Below, piece by piece: positions 8,589 to 14,833 of a stretch of DNA of 37,460 nucleotides; the first letter of the stretch is position 1; every line of letters begins with the position of its first letter. The notes under the pieces are model-generated. The model saw only the letters and a list, made by a program, of their open reading frames with translations. It searched no databases and was not told the DNA's origin. Position numbers and translations under genes: made by a program. This DNA comes from Chloroflexota bacterium. Lineage in GTDB: Bacteria > Chloroflexota > Anaerolineae > Anaerolineales > Anaerolineaceae. The stretch lies in NCBI GenBank assembly GCA_012729755.1, contig JAAYCN010000112.1, positions 1 through 37,460 on the forward strand, read 5' to 3'.

Positions 8589-9392
8589 CTATTGCAGTTC
8601 AAGACTTTCCGCGTTGTACCAATGGAAACCGTTTTCCGCGCAATATGCATTGATCTTGCTTGAAAGATACTTATCCGCGCCATATTCGAGCAAATATACG
8701 GGCAAACCGTAATCGTTTACTTTCGAAAGATACTCTTTAAAATAGCCTGTAACTTCTTCACTCTGCGCTTTATAGCTATGATTCTCAAAGTCTATGGCGG
8801 TAAACACCGTTTCCTGATTTATCCCGTCGAATAGTGACAGGGCTATATCCTTTTCTATGCACTTTGAAACAAAGGTATCGCCACCGTTGATAACTTGTTT
8901 CAGATTGTATTTTTTCAATCCACCCAAAATCTTGCAAAGTCCCCGGAAAATATCTTCTGTCGGATAATTGTAATAGACATCGGCATTGTCCAGAAAGAAT
9001 CCATCGAACCCCATATCCGCGTACTGTTTGCCTAATTCATCGATGATAAAGCTTTGCCACTCAGGAGAAGCCACATCGATCCACCCCTCATCCGGCCAAT
9101 CCTCGTAAACACTAAGGACAAGTCCTTGAAATCGATTGTAATAGGGGCGGTACTTTTCAATAGAACCTATATTCAGATAGCCATACACCGTTTTCCCGGC
9201 AGAATGTAATGCTTTGATCTGCTCTGTAGAAAATTCCGACGGCTCGATTACAACGAGCCTGTATTGGCTCAGCTTGTCGATTTCATTTCCATTAATACCG
9301 AGAAAAACGCCATACTCCTGTGGCTGTCGTGTTGTACATCCGATTAGGAACGGCAAAATGCAAAAACTGATAAAGAATAGTAGCTTTTTCAT
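8589..9392 (-). CDS. GH114-like (endo-alpha-1,4-polygalactosaminidase family) lipoprotein
   Basis: A predicted lipoprotein of 267 residues from MKKLLFF. A hydrophobic signal ends in lipobox LIGC at about residue 19, so the mature protein should be membrane-anchored outside the cytoplasm. The TIM-barrel body shows the family pattern: VYGYLNIGSIEKYRPYY, GWIDVASPEWQSFI and MGFDGFFLDNADVY, with an acidic catalytic site. Relatives cleave galactosaminogalactan-type or related amino-sugar polymers; the true substrate is unknown. The longer reading frame starts at 9440, but the signal peptide favours 9392. No clear ribosome site is seen for either start. The gene is visibly more A+T-rich than its neighbours and lies next to a tRNA, which hints at acquisition. 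Confidence 0.85.
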   Translation of the reverse strand: MKKLLFFISFCILPFLIGCTTRQPQEYGVFLGINGNEIDKLSQYRLVVIEPSEFSTEQIKALHSAGKTVYGYLNIGSIEKYRPYYNRFQGLVLSVYEDWPDEGWIDVASPEWQSFIIDELGKQYADMGFDGFFLDNADVYYNYPTEDIFRGLCKILGGLKKYNLKQVINGGDTFVSKCIEKDIALSLFDGINQETVFTAIDFENHSYKAQSEEVTGYFKEYLSKVNDYGLPVYLLEYGADKYLSSKINAYCAENGFHWYNAESLELQ

Positions 9393-9485
9393 ATTGGTGT
9401 TTAAGCAAGGATTTACCTGTTTTGACTGCCTGCTGATCATTGATTAATTGAAAATCTTAAAAGTGCGTATCACTACTTATGCCAG

Positions 9486-9526
9486 AAAAAGGTCAGTTTC
9501 CGCCTGTCTTTTTTGTCTTAACTGAC
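9486..9526 (-). terminator. Possible terminator after the methyltransferase gene
   Basis: On the minus strand GTCAGTT (9526-9520) can pair with AACTGAC (9498-9492), followed by CTTTTTCT. The stem begins inside the final codons and the loop is long, so confidence is low. Confidence 0.35.
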
Positions 9527-10261
9527 AATTCCATAGGCGTAAAAAGTCGGGATGAAGACGGTCGCTTCACCGGAAAGCCAGGATTCTTTTGCTTTTTCTC
9601 TGAGCGATAAAATCTCGTCCACCGGGACGAAACCGCCCAAATCCCAGGCGATCACGTCCCATTCCGCGTCAAACTCCGCTTCCTCCGGGTTACGCCATTC
9701 GCCTCCCAAGAGGCCTAATTTCACATCTTCCAGCCCGCTTTGGCGGAAGAGAAGACCTAATTTGCGGCCCATCATGATGTCGACACCCTGAAACTCTAAA
9801 GACCTGTTTTGATAGTTGCCGATGTAGCTGAAAATATGTGGGTAATCGACACGTGAAGCATAATCGGGCTCGGCAAACGCGATCACCGCCCCGCCGCGAT
9901 GGGTGACCCTCACCATTTCTTTGAGAATCGATAATGGATCATCCAACCAGAGCAAAAGGTAATGACAAACCACGAAATCGAACACACCACCGCATACTGG
10001 CAGGTGGCGGCCATCCGCACAGATACTTGAAAGATCCGGCAGGTTTTTTTTAGCAAACAGCGAGCGGCTCAATTCAATATCTACTGCGCATGGCCACGCG
10101 TGAAGCGCCTGAAAATCGGACATGAGCGCCCCAGTACCACTGCCGACCTCGAGAATGCGGTTGCCGGGCTGAACACCGAGCTTATTGAGCAGGAAGCTGC
10201 GGAGGTTGCGCGTCCATCCCGCTTGAAACTGATAACGCCGGTGCCAATCAGTCAGCTTCAT
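9518..10261 (-). CDS. Class I SAM-dependent methyltransferase
   Basis: A 247-residue soluble methyltransferase. The SAM-binding glycine motif ILEVGSGTGAL is at about residues 38-48. An acidic VDIEL and DFVVCHYLLLWLDDP (Methyltransf_11-like motif II region) follow. The middle segment MVRVTHRGGAVIAFAEPDY is typical of small-molecule or peptide methyltransferases of this fold. The start codon overlaps the stop of the preceding radical-SAM-like gene (ATGA at 10258-10261), so the two are translationally coupled. It is the last gene of the five-gene run. The substrate is unknown; context suggests the product or co-substrate of the radical SAM pair. Confidence 0.9.
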   Translation of the reverse strand: MKLTDWHRRYQFQAGWTRNLRSFLLNKLGVQPGNRILEVGSGTGALMSDFQALHAWPCAVDIELSRSLFAKKNLPDLSSICADGRHLPVCGGVFDFVVCHYLLLWLDDPLSILKEMVRVTHRGGAVIAFAEPDYASRVDYPHIFSYIGNYQNRSLEFQGVDIMMGRKLGLLFRQSGLEDVKLGLLGGEWRNPEEAEFDAEWDVIAWDLGGFVPVDEILSLREKAKESWLSGEATVFIPTFYAYGIVS

Positions 10262-11367
10262 TCATCCATCTTTCTTTTTGACCAGATATCCTCAAAACTA
10301 TCCGATAGCCAGTTGCCCATCTTTTCCTGCCAGGTGTTGTCCGCATACACCTCACCTTTTGGTGAGACGCTCAATTCGGTGTAGCTTTCTTTTCCAGTTA
10401 TTGCCATATCAACCATTGTCGGGTGATGGTATTCCACAGGTATGGGAAGATCATTGATGAGGCGCAGCTCATAAGAGGAGATATCTTCGGTCAGTTGCAG
10501 AGCGAATTTATCCGCGATTGTCGCTGGGGAGATGACTGAAAACGCGTTAGCGCCAAGCTTGGACAGGGAATCGAGAATTGGTCCATAATCTACGCCCTCA
10601 CGAACAACCAGCCCCACACAGGTAAACAAGTCAAGAGGTAAGATTTGCTGAAGAGCGGTTTGGATAAGCGGATCGGAGGGTTCATAGATCGCGTAGAGAT
10701 GATCCAAGCCGGACTCGATCATGCGAGCTACATATGCAGAATCGGATAATTTTTGACCACGGCTTACCAAACCGCTAACCAATCCGAATTCTTCTGTATA
10801 AGCTAATAAATCGGTCAGATATTCAACCTCGGTTGGTTCACTGCCACAGAAAAGAATGTGTGGTATCCCCGCTTCGTAAGCTTTTTTGATGATGTTTTTC
10901 CAGTCGTCCAATTTGAGGTTTACCTTTAATCCAAGCGATCCGCCGTTAAGGTAGCAATCAAGACGATAGGGCGCGGAGAGGTTGTCGACATCGTTATGTG
11001 CTTCAAATATGCCCTGGTGTTCTGGGTCGAGATCGATTGTGGTAACCAGTTCTTCCAATTGATGATGGAGCAGTGTAACGTCAGTTAAGCAAGTTTGGGG
11101 ATCAACCTTAAAATGTGAAGCGACAAGCCTGGCGTTCTCCTGATCAGACTTTCCGTTGATCAGGTTATAGACCATTTCAGTGGCTGTCTGGTTGAGATGC
11201 AGGATAGTTGATGCGTTCACGATCAACACGCCTTCTCCATCGGGTTCAACCCGAAGATGCAGGCGATATTGAGGTGTTTTGTTTTCAGGCGTGTGATAAG
11301 TGTAAAATCCTTGGGGAATAGGCTTTGGATTTTCAAATATTGCGCGTAGCTTCTCGATTATATTCAT
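10258..11367 (-). CDS. PqqD-like/radical SAM-like pseudoenzyme (lacks cluster cysteines)
   Basis: A 369-residue paralogue of the radical SAM protein encoded immediately upstream. The two align over their length. N-terminal PqqD-like blocks correspond (HLRVEPDGEGVLIVNASTI here, HLRVDQDQSGVMILDASQV there), as do LSAPYRLD/LSAPYRMD, GIPHILFCGSEPT/RIPHVVFTGGEPT, ESGLDHLYAIYEPSDP and the C-terminal LSDSFEDIW. The CxxxCxxC segment is absent: the aligned region reads YLNGGSLGLKVNL. All SPASM cysteines are also missing. It should therefore not bind Fe-S clusters or cleave SAM. The ATG at 11367 has a GGGAG ribosome site; an earlier ATG at 11379 overlaps the previous stop (TAATG). Role inferred: a partner or peptide-binding scaffold for the active enzyme. 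Confidence 0.88.
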   Translation of the reverse strand: MNIIEKLRAIFENPKPIPQGFYTYHTPENKTPQYRLHLRVEPDGEGVLIVNASTILHLNQTATEMVYNLINGKSDQENARLVASHFKVDPQTCLTDVTLLHHQLEELVTTIDLDPEHQGIFEAHNDVDNLSAPYRLDCYLNGGSLGLKVNLKLDDWKNIIKKAYEAGIPHILFCGSEPTEVEYLTDLLAYTEEFGLVSGLVSRGQKLSDSAYVARMIESGLDHLYAIYEPSDPLIQTALQQILPLDLFTCVGLVVREGVDYGPILDSLSKLGANAFSVISPATIADKFALQLTEDISSYELRLINDLPIPVEYHHPTMVDMAITGKESYTELSVSPKGEVYADNTWQEKMGNWLSDSFEDIWSKRKMDE

Positions 11368-11378
11368 AATTGCTCCCA

Positions 11379-12731
11379 TTAGCTAAATACTTCAATGATC
11401 GGTTCAACTGTCTGATGCTCTCTGGCAAGTGGACAACCACCGCCGCATTCCAACAGAAAATCGCAACGTCTGCATCCGTCTGGAATATTCTGTCGATGCC
11501 TCAGGGATTCAGCCAGAGGATGCTGCCAGATGCTTTCCCACGAGTTCGAGAGAATGTTGCCGAGGCTCTCATAATAAGATTGGCAGGGCAGCACGTCGCC
11601 ATTTGGCTCGAGGCACATGTTGTAATATGCCGCGGTGCAGCCTTTGACGCCAAGCGACAAAAGCAGGGGGTTAAAGTGGCAATACTGGGTTGGGGTGTAC
11701 CAGATCAGCTGCTGGCCACTGTTTTGGGTAAACTTAGTCGCTTTTTCCAGAAGCGGGGGCAAATCGTTTTCTTTCAAGCCGGTCTGGACTGTTGCCCCGT
11801 GTCCTGAATAAATTAGAGCGTTGATGCCGATGGTGGGGACGTGCTCGTCTGCCAGGAAGGTAAGAATTTCATCCAACCTGCCTGCATTACTGCTCAGTAA
11901 AGTCGTGTTAGTCATCAAATAAAGTCTGGAATTGACAGCATTTCTCAAGCCCTCACGGGTTTCTTCCCATGCGCCTCGCGCCAGCACCATCTGATCATGC
12001 ACATCCGGGTCATTGGACTCAACAGTGATCTGCACATGATCAAGACCCGCTTCGACCAAACGGTCGACAAACAATTTATCAGCCAACCGCCTGCCATTGG
12101 TGTTCAAGCCGGTCACCATGCCTTTTGTTTGCGCGTAGCTGACGAGGTCAATCAGGTCATCTCTCAACGTTGGTTCTCCGCCAGTGAAAACAACGTGTGG
12201 AATGCGTAATTCCCAGAGGTGGTCGATAATCTCAAACCATTTTTGAGCAGGCAGTTCCGGAAAATGGCGCTCTCTGGCATTGTAGCAATGGGCGCAATTG
12301 TTATTGCAGCGGTATGTGATTGCCAGATCCATCCGGTACGGAGCACTGAGAGTTGAAGAGAAGGGCATCGCAGACACCAAATCAAGGTCACATACCGGAC
12401 AAAGCGCCTGTTCTTTGTCAATTAATGCGCTGGTTTGAGCTGAAATTCGCTCAAAGTCCATTTCTGCCTGTTGTCTGTCGATGCGATAATGTTTCAGAAT
12501 GGCTTTAACCGCTTGCGTGCGTTCGATCTTATTCAAGACCAGCCAGGCAATGAAGGTCGCGGTGGGGTTTAGATGAACTACCTGTGAGGCATCTAAAATC
12601 ATCACACCGCTCTGATCCTGGTCAACTCGCAGGTGCACCCTTGATTTTGAATGCTCGGATTCTTGATCAAAGGTATATAAGCCTGTCTCAGGCAAATCTG
12701 GCAATGCTCGTTGAAAAAGCTTGAGTCGCAT
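11379..12731 (-). CDS. Radical SAM/SPASM peptide-maturase-like enzyme with PqqD-like N-terminus
   Basis: A 450-residue enzyme with three parts. Residues about 15-105 resemble a PqqD-like RiPP-recognition domain. A CPVC pair lies at 111-114. The radical SAM core begins near 130, with C142, C146 and C149 (CNNNCAHC) for the SAM-binding [4Fe-4S] cluster and TGGEP at 183-187. A SPASM domain has C365, C373, C383, C420, C423, C429 and C433 for auxiliary clusters. This layout resembles PqqE-like enzymes that modify ribosomally made peptides. Its ATG lies only 12 bp after the stop of the gene encoding the Cys-Ala-tailed protein, and its stop overlaps the next gene. I infer that it modifies that tail; sequence alone cannot prove this. 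Confidence 0.92.
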   Translation of the reverse strand: MRLKLFQRALPDLPETGLYTFDQESEHSKSRVHLRVDQDQSGVMILDASQVVHLNPTATFIAWLVLNKIERTQAVKAILKHYRIDRQQAEMDFERISAQTSALIDKEQALCPVCDLDLVSAMPFSSTLSAPYRMDLAITYRCNNNCAHCYNARERHFPELPAQKWFEIIDHLWELRIPHVVFTGGEPTLRDDLIDLVSYAQTKGMVTGLNTNGRRLADKLFVDRLVEAGLDHVQITVESNDPDVHDQMVLARGAWEETREGLRNAVNSRLYLMTNTTLLSSNAGRLDEILTFLADEHVPTIGINALIYSGHGATVQTGLKENDLPPLLEKATKFTQNSGQQLIWYTPTQYCHFNPLLLSLGVKGCTAAYYNMCLEPNGDVLPCQSYYESLGNILSNSWESIWQHPLAESLRHRQNIPDGCRRCDFLLECGGGCPLAREHQTVEPIIEVFS

Positions 12732-12743
12732 GCGTAAATAAAG

Positions 12744-14471
12744 CTAACGGCCACCGCCGGCACAGGCACAGGCACAGCCCGCGCATGCACAGGCACATGC
12801 GCAAGAAGAGCCTCCTCCGCCTCCTCCCCTGAAACCACCACCTGAACGAGGTTGAGCCGGGATTGGGTTGGTACGGGAAGTAACAGAGCCAGTGAAGACG
12901 CCCACATTCCCAATCAGGCTGGCGGTCATGGCTGAAGCGTTATTGACCATTGAGGCAGCAAAATCAGCACCTGGGATACTCAACGGGCGTGAGGTAGTCG
13001 TTGAAGGACTGCTGGAGGGCTTTGGTGAGCTCAGGACTCCGCCACCACTGCGATATACCGGATCGTAACGCCCCCACCATCTCGGCAAGATCACAGGACC
13101 GCCACTGAAGGTACGCTCGGTGCGGGGGCCGTATTCTTTGTCGAGCATTGTCCATTCGAGCGCTTTCTCATATGTTGCCATCTTGACCTCGGGCGTTGCC
13201 GAACCCTCGACAGATGACCACGCTCGAGCGACGATATCCTTGTAATAGGCGACCGTCTCAGGAACTGAAAAACCTTTCATTTTATCTGTGACAACCTTAA
13301 CCAGGTCAATAATGGTTGATCGAAGAGCGCGTCGACGGGCTTCTTTGTCTTTGGATTTGAAGGCTAAAATAAAGCTTTTCTCATATTCATGGAGGTCTGC
13401 CGGCATTGGATCCTTCACCAGGATTTCAAGCGGCTCTTTTTGAGCAACCATAACGGCATCTTTCTTGATTACACCAAACAGAATCATGGTCAAGATGCGG
13501 TCAATAGGTTGTTCCATCAGAATGCCGGCTTCAACAGCTGTGAGACCGCGTTTGATGCCGTGCCCTTCGATTGAAATCTTTGGGGGAAGATATTCCATTT
13601 TACGCTTCTCATGATCTTTAGCGTTTTTAGCGTTTTTGATGACGGCAGCAATGAATATTGCCAGCGGAATCAGTCCAAAAAGGCAGGGTGTGCAGCTTAA
13701 TATTTCGGACCAGAAACTCGAACTCGAGCCTTGATTGTTGCCGCTGTTAAATGTCACTCCGATCGCGTTGCTCGGTACAGTGCTGGCTGGAAAGGCAGCC
13801 CCAAACAGGTAAGATGTGTGAGTGTCGGCTTCATCGCTGTACCATGAGTAGTAAACCCGCCCATCGGTTGTTGTGGAAGCCTCTACCTCCTGGGTCTGGG
13901 GAAATTTTCCAGGTTTGTAGTAAACACCCTGATCTGTTCCCACACCAGGTGGGAGAATGATGGTCATCCGATATTGCGTGTTATTGGATCGATCGAAGGA
14001 CGAGTCGAAATAGGAGGGAGTGAACTGGAAATTAGCGAAATTCTCTTTATCTTCGCCATCGTAAGGGGTGAGAAATTTCGTGATGCCGTAGACGTTGGCT
14101 GTCACGACTCCTGTTGCGCCAGAAGGAATAGCGTTGTTTTTTAAACCGAGTTCAACGCCATGGACGTATTCTGAGTTTTGAATATGTGTGATCGGAATTT
14201 CGTTTATCTGAGCGGAAATATTCTTGACCTGATATTCCGCGTAAGGCAAACCCAGGTCCACGAAATCAATCGGTTTCCCACTCGGCGAGTTTTTAAAATC
14301 CATGAGGTACTTGAGAGTTAGCGTTCCGTCTGACTCGATGTAAGCCTCAACCTCATAGCGAGTAACTTTGAATTCGTAGTTCTGGGCTGAAACGTTTGTG
14401 ATCGGCAGAATAAAAATCAGAAGACAAATCAAAAACGTTGTTATTATGAGGAAACGAGATTTTTTTACCAT
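12744..14471 (-). CDS. DUF2207-type membrane protein with glycine-rich Cys-Ala tail
   Basis: A 575-residue protein starting MVKKSRFLI. A signal peptide (about 1-29, ending NVSAQ) precedes an extracytoplasmic DUF2207-like domain of about 225 residues. One transmembrane helix lies at about 256-278 (CLFGLIPLAIFIAAVI), then a cytoplasmic region of about 270 residues, and a Ser/Pro/Gly-rich stretch. The end is extraordinary: GGGFRGGGGGGSS followed by alternating Cys-Ala (seven Cys) and GGGR. Many DUF2207 proteins end in glycine runs; the regular Cys-Ala pattern and the adjacent radical SAM gene are what stand out. The ATG at 14471 overlaps the upstream stop, favouring it over a frame extending to 14585. 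Function unknown. Confidence 0.88.
   Translation of the reverse strand: MVKKSRFLIITTFLICLLIFILPITNVSAQNYEFKVTRYEVEAYIESDGTLTLKYLMDFKNSPSGKPIDFVDLGLPYAEYQVKNISAQINEIPITHIQNSEYVHGVELGLKNNAIPSGATGVVTANVYGITKFLTPYDGEDKENFANFQFTPSYFDSSFDRSNNTQYRMTIILPPGVGTDQGVYYKPGKFPQTQEVEASTTTDGRVYYSWYSDEADTHTSYLFGAAFPASTVPSNAIGVTFNSGNNQGSSSSFWSEILSCTPCLFGLIPLAIFIAAVIKNAKNAKDHEKRKMEYLPPKISIEGHGIKRGLTAVEAGILMEQPIDRILTMILFGVIKKDAVMVAQKEPLEILVKDPMPADLHEYEKSFILAFKSKDKEARRRALRSTIIDLVKVVTDKMKGFSVPETVAYYKDIVARAWSSVEGSATPEVKMATYEKALEWTMLDKEYGPRTERTFSGGPVILPRWWGRYDPVYRSGGGVLSSPKPSSSPSTTTSRPLSIPGADFAASMVNNASAMTASLIGNVGVFTGSVTSRTNPIPAQPRSGGGFRGGGGGGSSCACACACAGCACACAGGGR
12747..12809 (-). repeat. Short repeat encoding the Cys-Ala tail
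   Basis: The last 63 coding bases of the DUF2207-type gene. On the plus strand they show reiterated GGCACA/GCACAG hexamers (clearest at 12759-12777). They encode CACACACAG then CACACAG and GGGR. Perfect and near-perfect hexamers mean slippage could change the number of Cys-Ala units between strains. Confidence 0.8.
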
Positions 14472-14833
14472 TTTGGCTCTTCGGTGATTTCGTAAGTTGT
14501 GCCGCAGCTGTGGCATTTGACCATAGCTGCGCCATTGGCGAGTGTGATATCGCTGGCGTCCAGCGGGGCTCCGCAGGAAGCACATTTCATTGAGTCTAAT
14601 TTGATATTTCCGGGCAGGTCGAGTTTGACAGTGACATTTTGAGCTGTCTTTGTGGCAGATGTCGTAAGACGTGCGCCGGCATAAATCAATACCAACCCTG
14701 CTCCGAGCCCAATCAACCCGGCTATTCGCCAGGCTGAGTCGCCGGTCGCGCCAAAGCTTCCTAAAATCAAAAGCAAAGAGAACATAAGCAGAATTCCTGC
14801 TAAAACATAAGCAATAATTCCGGCTGTTTTCAT
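14465..14833 (-). CDS. Small two-helix membrane protein with C-terminal zinc ribbon
   Basis: A 122-residue protein, first gene of the cluster. Two hydrophobic helices (about residues 6-28 and 36-54) are followed by a short linker and a zinc ribbon with CASC (about 84-87) and CHSC (about 106-109). AGGAGG (14840-14845) lies six bases upstream of the ATG, and a TATAAT-like element is at 14868-14873. The TAA stop overlaps the start of the DUF2207-type gene, so the two are coupled. Function is not known. With a membrane anchor and a zinc site it could be an accessory of the DUF2207 protein. Confidence 0.85.
   Translation of the reverse strand: MKTAGIIAYVLAGILLMFSLLLILGSFGATGDSAWRIAGLIGLGAGLVLIYAGARLTTSATKTAQNVTVKLDLPGNIKLDSMKCASCGAPLDASDITLANGAAMVKCHSCGTTYEITEEPKW

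Follow-up and report, generated by a model that had tools for sequence, protein, structure and literature searches.

We identified, in a 37,460-nucleotide contig of a Chloroflexota bacterium from the family Anaerolineaceae (the whole stretch analysed, hereafter the window), a 369-residue pseudo-radical SAM protein, B (10258..11367, minus strand), which is a paralogue of the enzyme encoded next to it, A, and has lost all the iron-sulfur cysteines that A conserves. We propose, with a probability of roughly 0.6, that B and A are the two subunits of a split radical SAM maturase, with B recognising the substrate and A acting as the catalyst. The computed observations are the loss of the cysteines, the retention of B under selection, the conservation of the cassette in which it is encoded, and a swap of evolutionary constraint between the domains of A and B. 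Judged from these sequences, the two copies may split one job, with A responsible for the chemistry and B for the recognition of a membrane protein with a Cys-rich tail.

The minus strand of the window carries a compact run of genes, Z, C, A, B and D. Z (14465..14833) is a small zinc-ribbon (CxxC...CxxC) membrane protein whose reading frame overlaps the beginning of C (12744..14471, with the likely start MVKKSRF), a distantly DUF2207-like membrane protein that is the presumed substrate. A (11379..12731) is a radical SAM/SPASM enzyme with a PqqD-like domain of its own and 13 family-conserved cysteines, and D (9518..10261) is a SAM-dependent methyltransferase and a conserved member of the cassette. 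The initial annotation described the frame of B as intact and coupled on both sides, as we also find: 14 nt, including the stop codon, separate the stop of A from the start of B, and the stop of B and the start of D share an ATGA overlap. Across related loci, Z lies 5' of C in 78 of 92, the misses including all B2-type loci (see below) and several contig ends. In some families, the gene for a conserved protein, about 345 residues long and hydrophobic at its C-terminus, lies between A and B (L090 8655-9689, L134 7779-8819 and L137 7752-8792). In the window, the cassette is adjoined by a GH114-family glycoside hydrolase with a lipoprotein-like start (8589-9440).

The frame of B is open at the annotated place, and its longest form starts from an ATG at 11379 (373 aa). 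The ATG at 11367 (369 aa) falls in a column occupied by Met in 67 of 72 orthologous B open reading frames (ORFs) and is preceded by GGGAG, a ribosome-binding-like site (11373..11377, minus strand); because of the conserved Met column and this upstream site, we prefer the 11367 start and the coordinates given above. B aligns with A at 28% identity (E 9e-40) along 406 columns, from the PqqD-like domain through the barrel into the first part of the SPASM region. The 13 cysteines conserved in A each occur in 32 or more of 36 A proteins; the linker between the PqqD-like RRE domain and the barrel holds two of them, the CxxxCxxC motif three and the SPASM region eight. At these 13 columns, not one of the 67 aligned B proteins has a cysteine, which bears out the earlier description of B as a paralogue of A devoid of iron-sulfur cysteines. 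In the segment of B matching the CxxxCxxC loop of A in the alignment (10912..10965, minus strand), the loop is shortened and the motif cysteines are all gone, and the columns of the last four SPASM cysteines are gaps in 67/67 B proteins, so that this C-terminal part was deleted, with no substitution. The remnant of the GGEP motif kept by most B orthologues reads CGSEP in the window (10834..10848, minus strand). The initial annotation had placed the GEP-motif region at CGSEPT; the altered residues are a local drift of the window's B, as the second G and the E of GGE are each retained in 62/67 B proteins.

The probable PqqD-like RRE domain of B comprises residues 20-109 (11041..11310, minus strand), on the evidence of the Pfam PqqD profile and a structural model. 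The window's B scores 22.7-22.8 bits against PqqD, just below the cut-off of 23.4, and 13.9 bits against Radical_SAM, below the cut-off of 29.5; across the family, at E 0.01, PqqD is detected in 57/67 B proteins, Radical_SAM in 62/67 and SPASM in 7/67. The model of B (pLDDT 87.4, pTM 0.86) shows four strands and three helices in the RRE region. Compared with the maturases SuiB and SkfB, it yields VIA-align Z scores of 21.2 and 21.1 over 295-298 residues covering the RRE and the barrel, the SuiB alignment beginning at residue 24, and Foldseek E values of 1e-11 and 2e-9; PqqE was also matched. Thus, by fold, whether judged by profile or structure, B belongs to the radical SAM superfamily. By its residues, it is neither a catalytic radical SAM protein, as none of the 67 family members has any of the three CxxxCxxC cysteines, nor a carrier of SPASM auxiliary clusters, as all eight corresponding cysteines are absent from the 67 B proteins.

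We searched 101 related genomes for B and C. The B query matched 78 of the 101, a figure that includes matches to the paralogue A, and the fetched loci contained 72 B ORFs, one of them from a duplicate locus, with the order C, A, B in most. For the B alignment, 67 of the 72 ORFs were used; those dropped were L110, which duplicates L067, L094 and L102, both truncated at contig ends, and L050 and L051, for which the start or end is unsure. About 70 intact orthologues are spread across several families of the window's order. In 23 gene pairs from close relatives, the dN/dS of B is 0.08-0.22, with dS near saturation in several pairs and past saturation in L034/L035. A search of the genome contigs for related loci returned no match. 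The intact orthologues and the dN/dS values agree with the earlier statement that B is not a decaying pseudogene, and the check for purifying selection that had been proposed with it came out in its favour. A duplicate merely heading for loss, as the fast evolution of the B barrel and the strong divergence of B in the window's genus might suggest, is already contradicted by the same data, namely intact frames in about 70 loci over several families and the low dN/dS, and is hardly credible.

The presence of A without B in 12 genomes, from the same class and other families, provides a natural comparison. In these genomes, the next match to the A profile reaches at most 105 bits, whereas B proteins score 200-370, and this is the basis on which B was called absent. 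C is present in 11 of the 12 (only as a fragment in G106; none was found in G105), and C, A and D also occur together without B, with D directly 3' of A in B-less L115, L116, L120-L123 and L125. Given these C-A-D cassettes, B is an addition, and the chemistry as such does not generally require it.

We compared the evolutionary rates of the two domains in A proteins with B (36 of 72 A ORFs, mostly those with clear starts), in lone A enzymes (10 of the 12 loci, L115 and L116 being left out as near-copies of L114) and in B. The RRE/barrel ratio of tree lengths is 1.76 for A with B (n=36), 1.11 for A without B (n=10, a small sample from one part of the tree) and 0.77 for B (n=35); in site bootstraps, the ratio of A with B exceeded that of each other group in 20/20 replicates. 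In the 35 genomes with both proteins, mean pairwise identities are 0.39 (A) and 0.44 (B) for the RRE, and 0.66 (A) and 0.42 (B) for the barrel. Among 17 disjoint genome pairs, which are not entirely independent, the RRE-minus-barrel identity is higher for B than for A in 17/17 and the RRE identity itself in 14/17. By the same difference, lone A enzymes (5 pairs) are distinct from A with B (Mann-Whitney p 0.009). Pfam PqqD is detected in 21/36 A proteins with B, compared with 12/12 lone A enzymes and the 57/67 B proteins mentioned above. The RRE of B is also closer to the lone enzymes than the RRE of A is in 32/35 genomes, and the barrel in 0/35. This closeness may be partly due to descent, because the tree places B beside the lone enzymes, and the rate ratios do not rest on it. 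Hence, where B is present, the RRE of A evolves fast and that of B slowly, and within B it is the barrel that has relaxed. In a mere spare copy, the domains should relax alike, and those of B do not. Because the RRE of B stays constrained while that of A relaxes, these findings indirectly support a substrate-binding role for B.

The same pattern bears on two other roles that B might have. As a regulator, it would be a decoy or inhibitor holding C or A until modification of the tail is due, which accords with the kept RRE fold and with the co-expression with A that the gene order makes probable. This role does not predict the relaxation of the RRE in A, there is no sign of any switch, and we regard it as quite unlikely. 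Alternatively, B could be an enzyme of another kind, maybe one that binds SAM through GGE and uses it without a cluster; the second G and the E of this motif are each retained in 62/67 B proteins of a gene under purifying selection. However, B cannot bind the iron that anchors SAM in the radical SAM superfamily, the motif has drifted to CGSEP in the window and is lost in B2, and the barrel is the very part of B that is relaxed, all of which makes another enzymatic activity very unlikely.

A role on the side of the methyltransferase has to be weighed more seriously. The B gene is linked as tightly to D, its neighbour in 62 of the 68 loci that have D on the same strand, as to A, from which it is separated by at most 150 nt in 54 of 62 loci (in several others, 1-3 genes intervene), and D is therefore a further possible partner of B. 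B could be a platform that presents the tail to D, which lacks an RRE of its own, before or after the radical step, and where B is unlinked to A (L081, L092 and L113), D accompanies it. However, D directly follows A in the B-less loci listed above, and such a platform alone does not account for the relaxed RRE of A in the presence of B; we consider this role unlikely, though less so than the other alternatives. The recognition-subunit reading is itself compatible with exchange of partners: in G068, G081 and G093, B adjoins C, A is absent and a different enzyme, A2, is encoded elsewhere, which fits B belonging to the substrate side. Against strict pairing count the 97%-complete genome G289, in which B is present and neither A nor C was found, as well as G066 and G091, where B lies beside D on another contig than C; no A was found in G091.

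The presumed substrate C starts with a signal-like N-terminus, has a single additional hydrophobic stretch around residue 265 and ends in a tail of the form (CA)nG(CA)3-4GGGR, which in the window is CACACACAGCACACAGGGR (12747..12803, minus strand). Because only one hydrophobic stretch follows the secreted N-terminal part, the tail is probably cytoplasmic. We gathered 93 C ends, 64 of which are CACACACAGCACACAGGGR and one of which has S replacing the central G; as these ends were chosen by the tail pattern itself, the count is not a rate. The tail is near-invariant among C orthologues (L031-L148), and in type-2 cassettes the order of the repeats is 3+4 (CACACAGCACACACAGGGR) instead of the usual 4+3. 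C was found in 75 of the 101 related genomes; where only C or only A/B was seen, the contig ends in several cases, and G051 carries a partial C and lacks A/B. The resemblance of C to Pfam DUF2207 is distant (14.3 bits, cut-off 24.4, E 0.049), and no match to NCBIfam TIGR04222 was obtained at E values up to 1. L149 (5075-8227) encodes a related pair that falls outside the A/B clades, a radical SAM protein and, beside it, a C-like protein that ends in a different Cys tail (SACHSACVCHSACHSACHSACVSNF). A literature search on the Cys-Ala tail or the cassette returned nothing except a paper on TIGR04222 membrane proteins. The system is common in the window's order, where a near-invariant Cys-Ala tail of a membrane protein is probably radical-modified.

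We envisage the following scenario for the recognition role of B. The ancestor of the cassette probably encoded one enzyme with an RRE and a catalytic barrel, as in present B-less cassettes. After duplication, A would have kept the iron-sulfur chemistry while its RRE relaxed, and B would have lost all clusters and kept the RRE. The RRE of B could then bind C through a leader-like segment, for which the conserved LPG..FAAS...Ft..vt..TNP.P stretch preceding the Gly-rich linker is a candidate. Binding there would bring the Cys-Ala tail into the catalytic centre of A, which would carry out a radical modification of the tail. This modification may be a thioether, as SPASM enzymes acting on Cys-rich peptides in general would suggest, and D would methylate before or after the radical step. 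The initial annotation had proposed B as a heterodimer partner, for example one binding the substrate tail. Its substrate-side role finds support in the constrained peptide-binding RRE of B and the relaxed one of A; as the site of binding, by analogy with known RREs, a leader-like stretch is to be expected rather than the Cys tail. For the putative A-B complex, a tethered single-chain AlphaFold model of the L061 proteins, built with 13 paired rows, gave a pTM of 0.52, a score that does not fix the relative orientation and speaks neither for nor against an interface; a larger A-B alignment with unpaired rows was set aside because B-only rows aligned to the A half.

Sister cassettes, A2-B2-C2, carry a second pseudo-family, B2, which lacks CxxxCxxC and has lost the GGE motif, and in which C..C.....C...C near the end is kept in most complete-ended copies. 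In trees of 85 and 62 of the 200 collected sequences, B groups next to the lone A enzymes and B2 is separate from it, either close to A2 or on a long branch, with support of 100/100 each. A single clade of B and B2 was not rejected by AU tests (p 0.354 and 0.234), and domain-wise trees were poorly resolved and added nothing on the origins of B and B2. Independent origins of the two families are favoured. The RRE/barrel rate ratios in the second cassette type, 2.08 for A2 and 1.19 for B2, point in the same direction as those of A and B; against this counts plain pairwise identity, by which A2 is intermediate between the lone A enzymes and A with B. We tentatively suggest, as a possibility of distinctly lower probability than the role proposed for B, that the maturase split twice independently, into A/B and A2/B2, each time yielding one copy that stays catalytic while its RRE fades and another, devoid of clusters, that retains the RRE as a dedicated recognition subunit for a protein tail. 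If so, this would be a division of labour through complementary decay, and B2, having kept the last four SPASM-type cysteines, would represent an intermediate or a parallel route. A2 enzymes also have a Cys/Gly/Ser-rich C-terminal extension of their own, for example, GGGCSGCSGSCG (L065 4063-5745, L106 283-2229 and L109 3182-4966), which is perhaps a second tail-like region.

Pseudo-radical SAM families have already been named, and B falls far under the cut-offs of both that we compared. TIGR04150 (with TIGR04148/TIGR04149) is likewise radical SAM-like and is named pseudo-rSAM in NCBIfam; B scores 15.2 bits against its cut-off of 250. TIGR04347 (family pseudo-SAM/SPASM protein) is, going by its NCBIfam name and like B, an inactive relative of SPASM-type radical SAM enzymes; B scores 22.6 bits against the cut-off of 525, and the active-type A scores more (109 bits). 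Our literature search found no paper explaining the function of pseudo-radical SAM proteins encoded beside active ones, and the natural B-less cassettes described here yield a testable answer, namely, that recognition has been taken over by the dead copy. SuiB and SkfB, RiPP maturases that share the fold of B over the RRE and the barrel, are active enzymes with clusters, whereas B lacks the cysteines for any. PqqD is a stand-alone RRE, in contrast to the RRE of B, which rides on a whole dead radical SAM barrel next to an A that retains its own relaxed RRE. Excerpts of the literature on PqqD describe it as a separate peptide-binding chaperone serving the radical SAM enzyme PqqE (PMC10906245). 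In the excerpted text of PMC4573289, the neighbours of TIGR04150 are a peptide and an active radical SAM protein; here, by contrast, a membrane protein ending in a Cys-Ala tail is the presumed substrate, and the cassette also includes a methyltransferase. As described in excerpts of PMC12452194, the RRE of MNIO systems is often located on a separate partner, and the MNIO family also occurs beside membrane proteins with Cys-rich ends; TIGR04222 membrane proteins, with Gly/Ser-rich, Cys-containing C-terminal regions, are encoded beside a RiPP-type enzyme. C differs from the TIGR04222 systems in that its enzyme is a radical SAM protein rather than an MNIO and its tail is probably cytoplasmic, whereas the TIGR04222 tails are predicted to be periplasmic.
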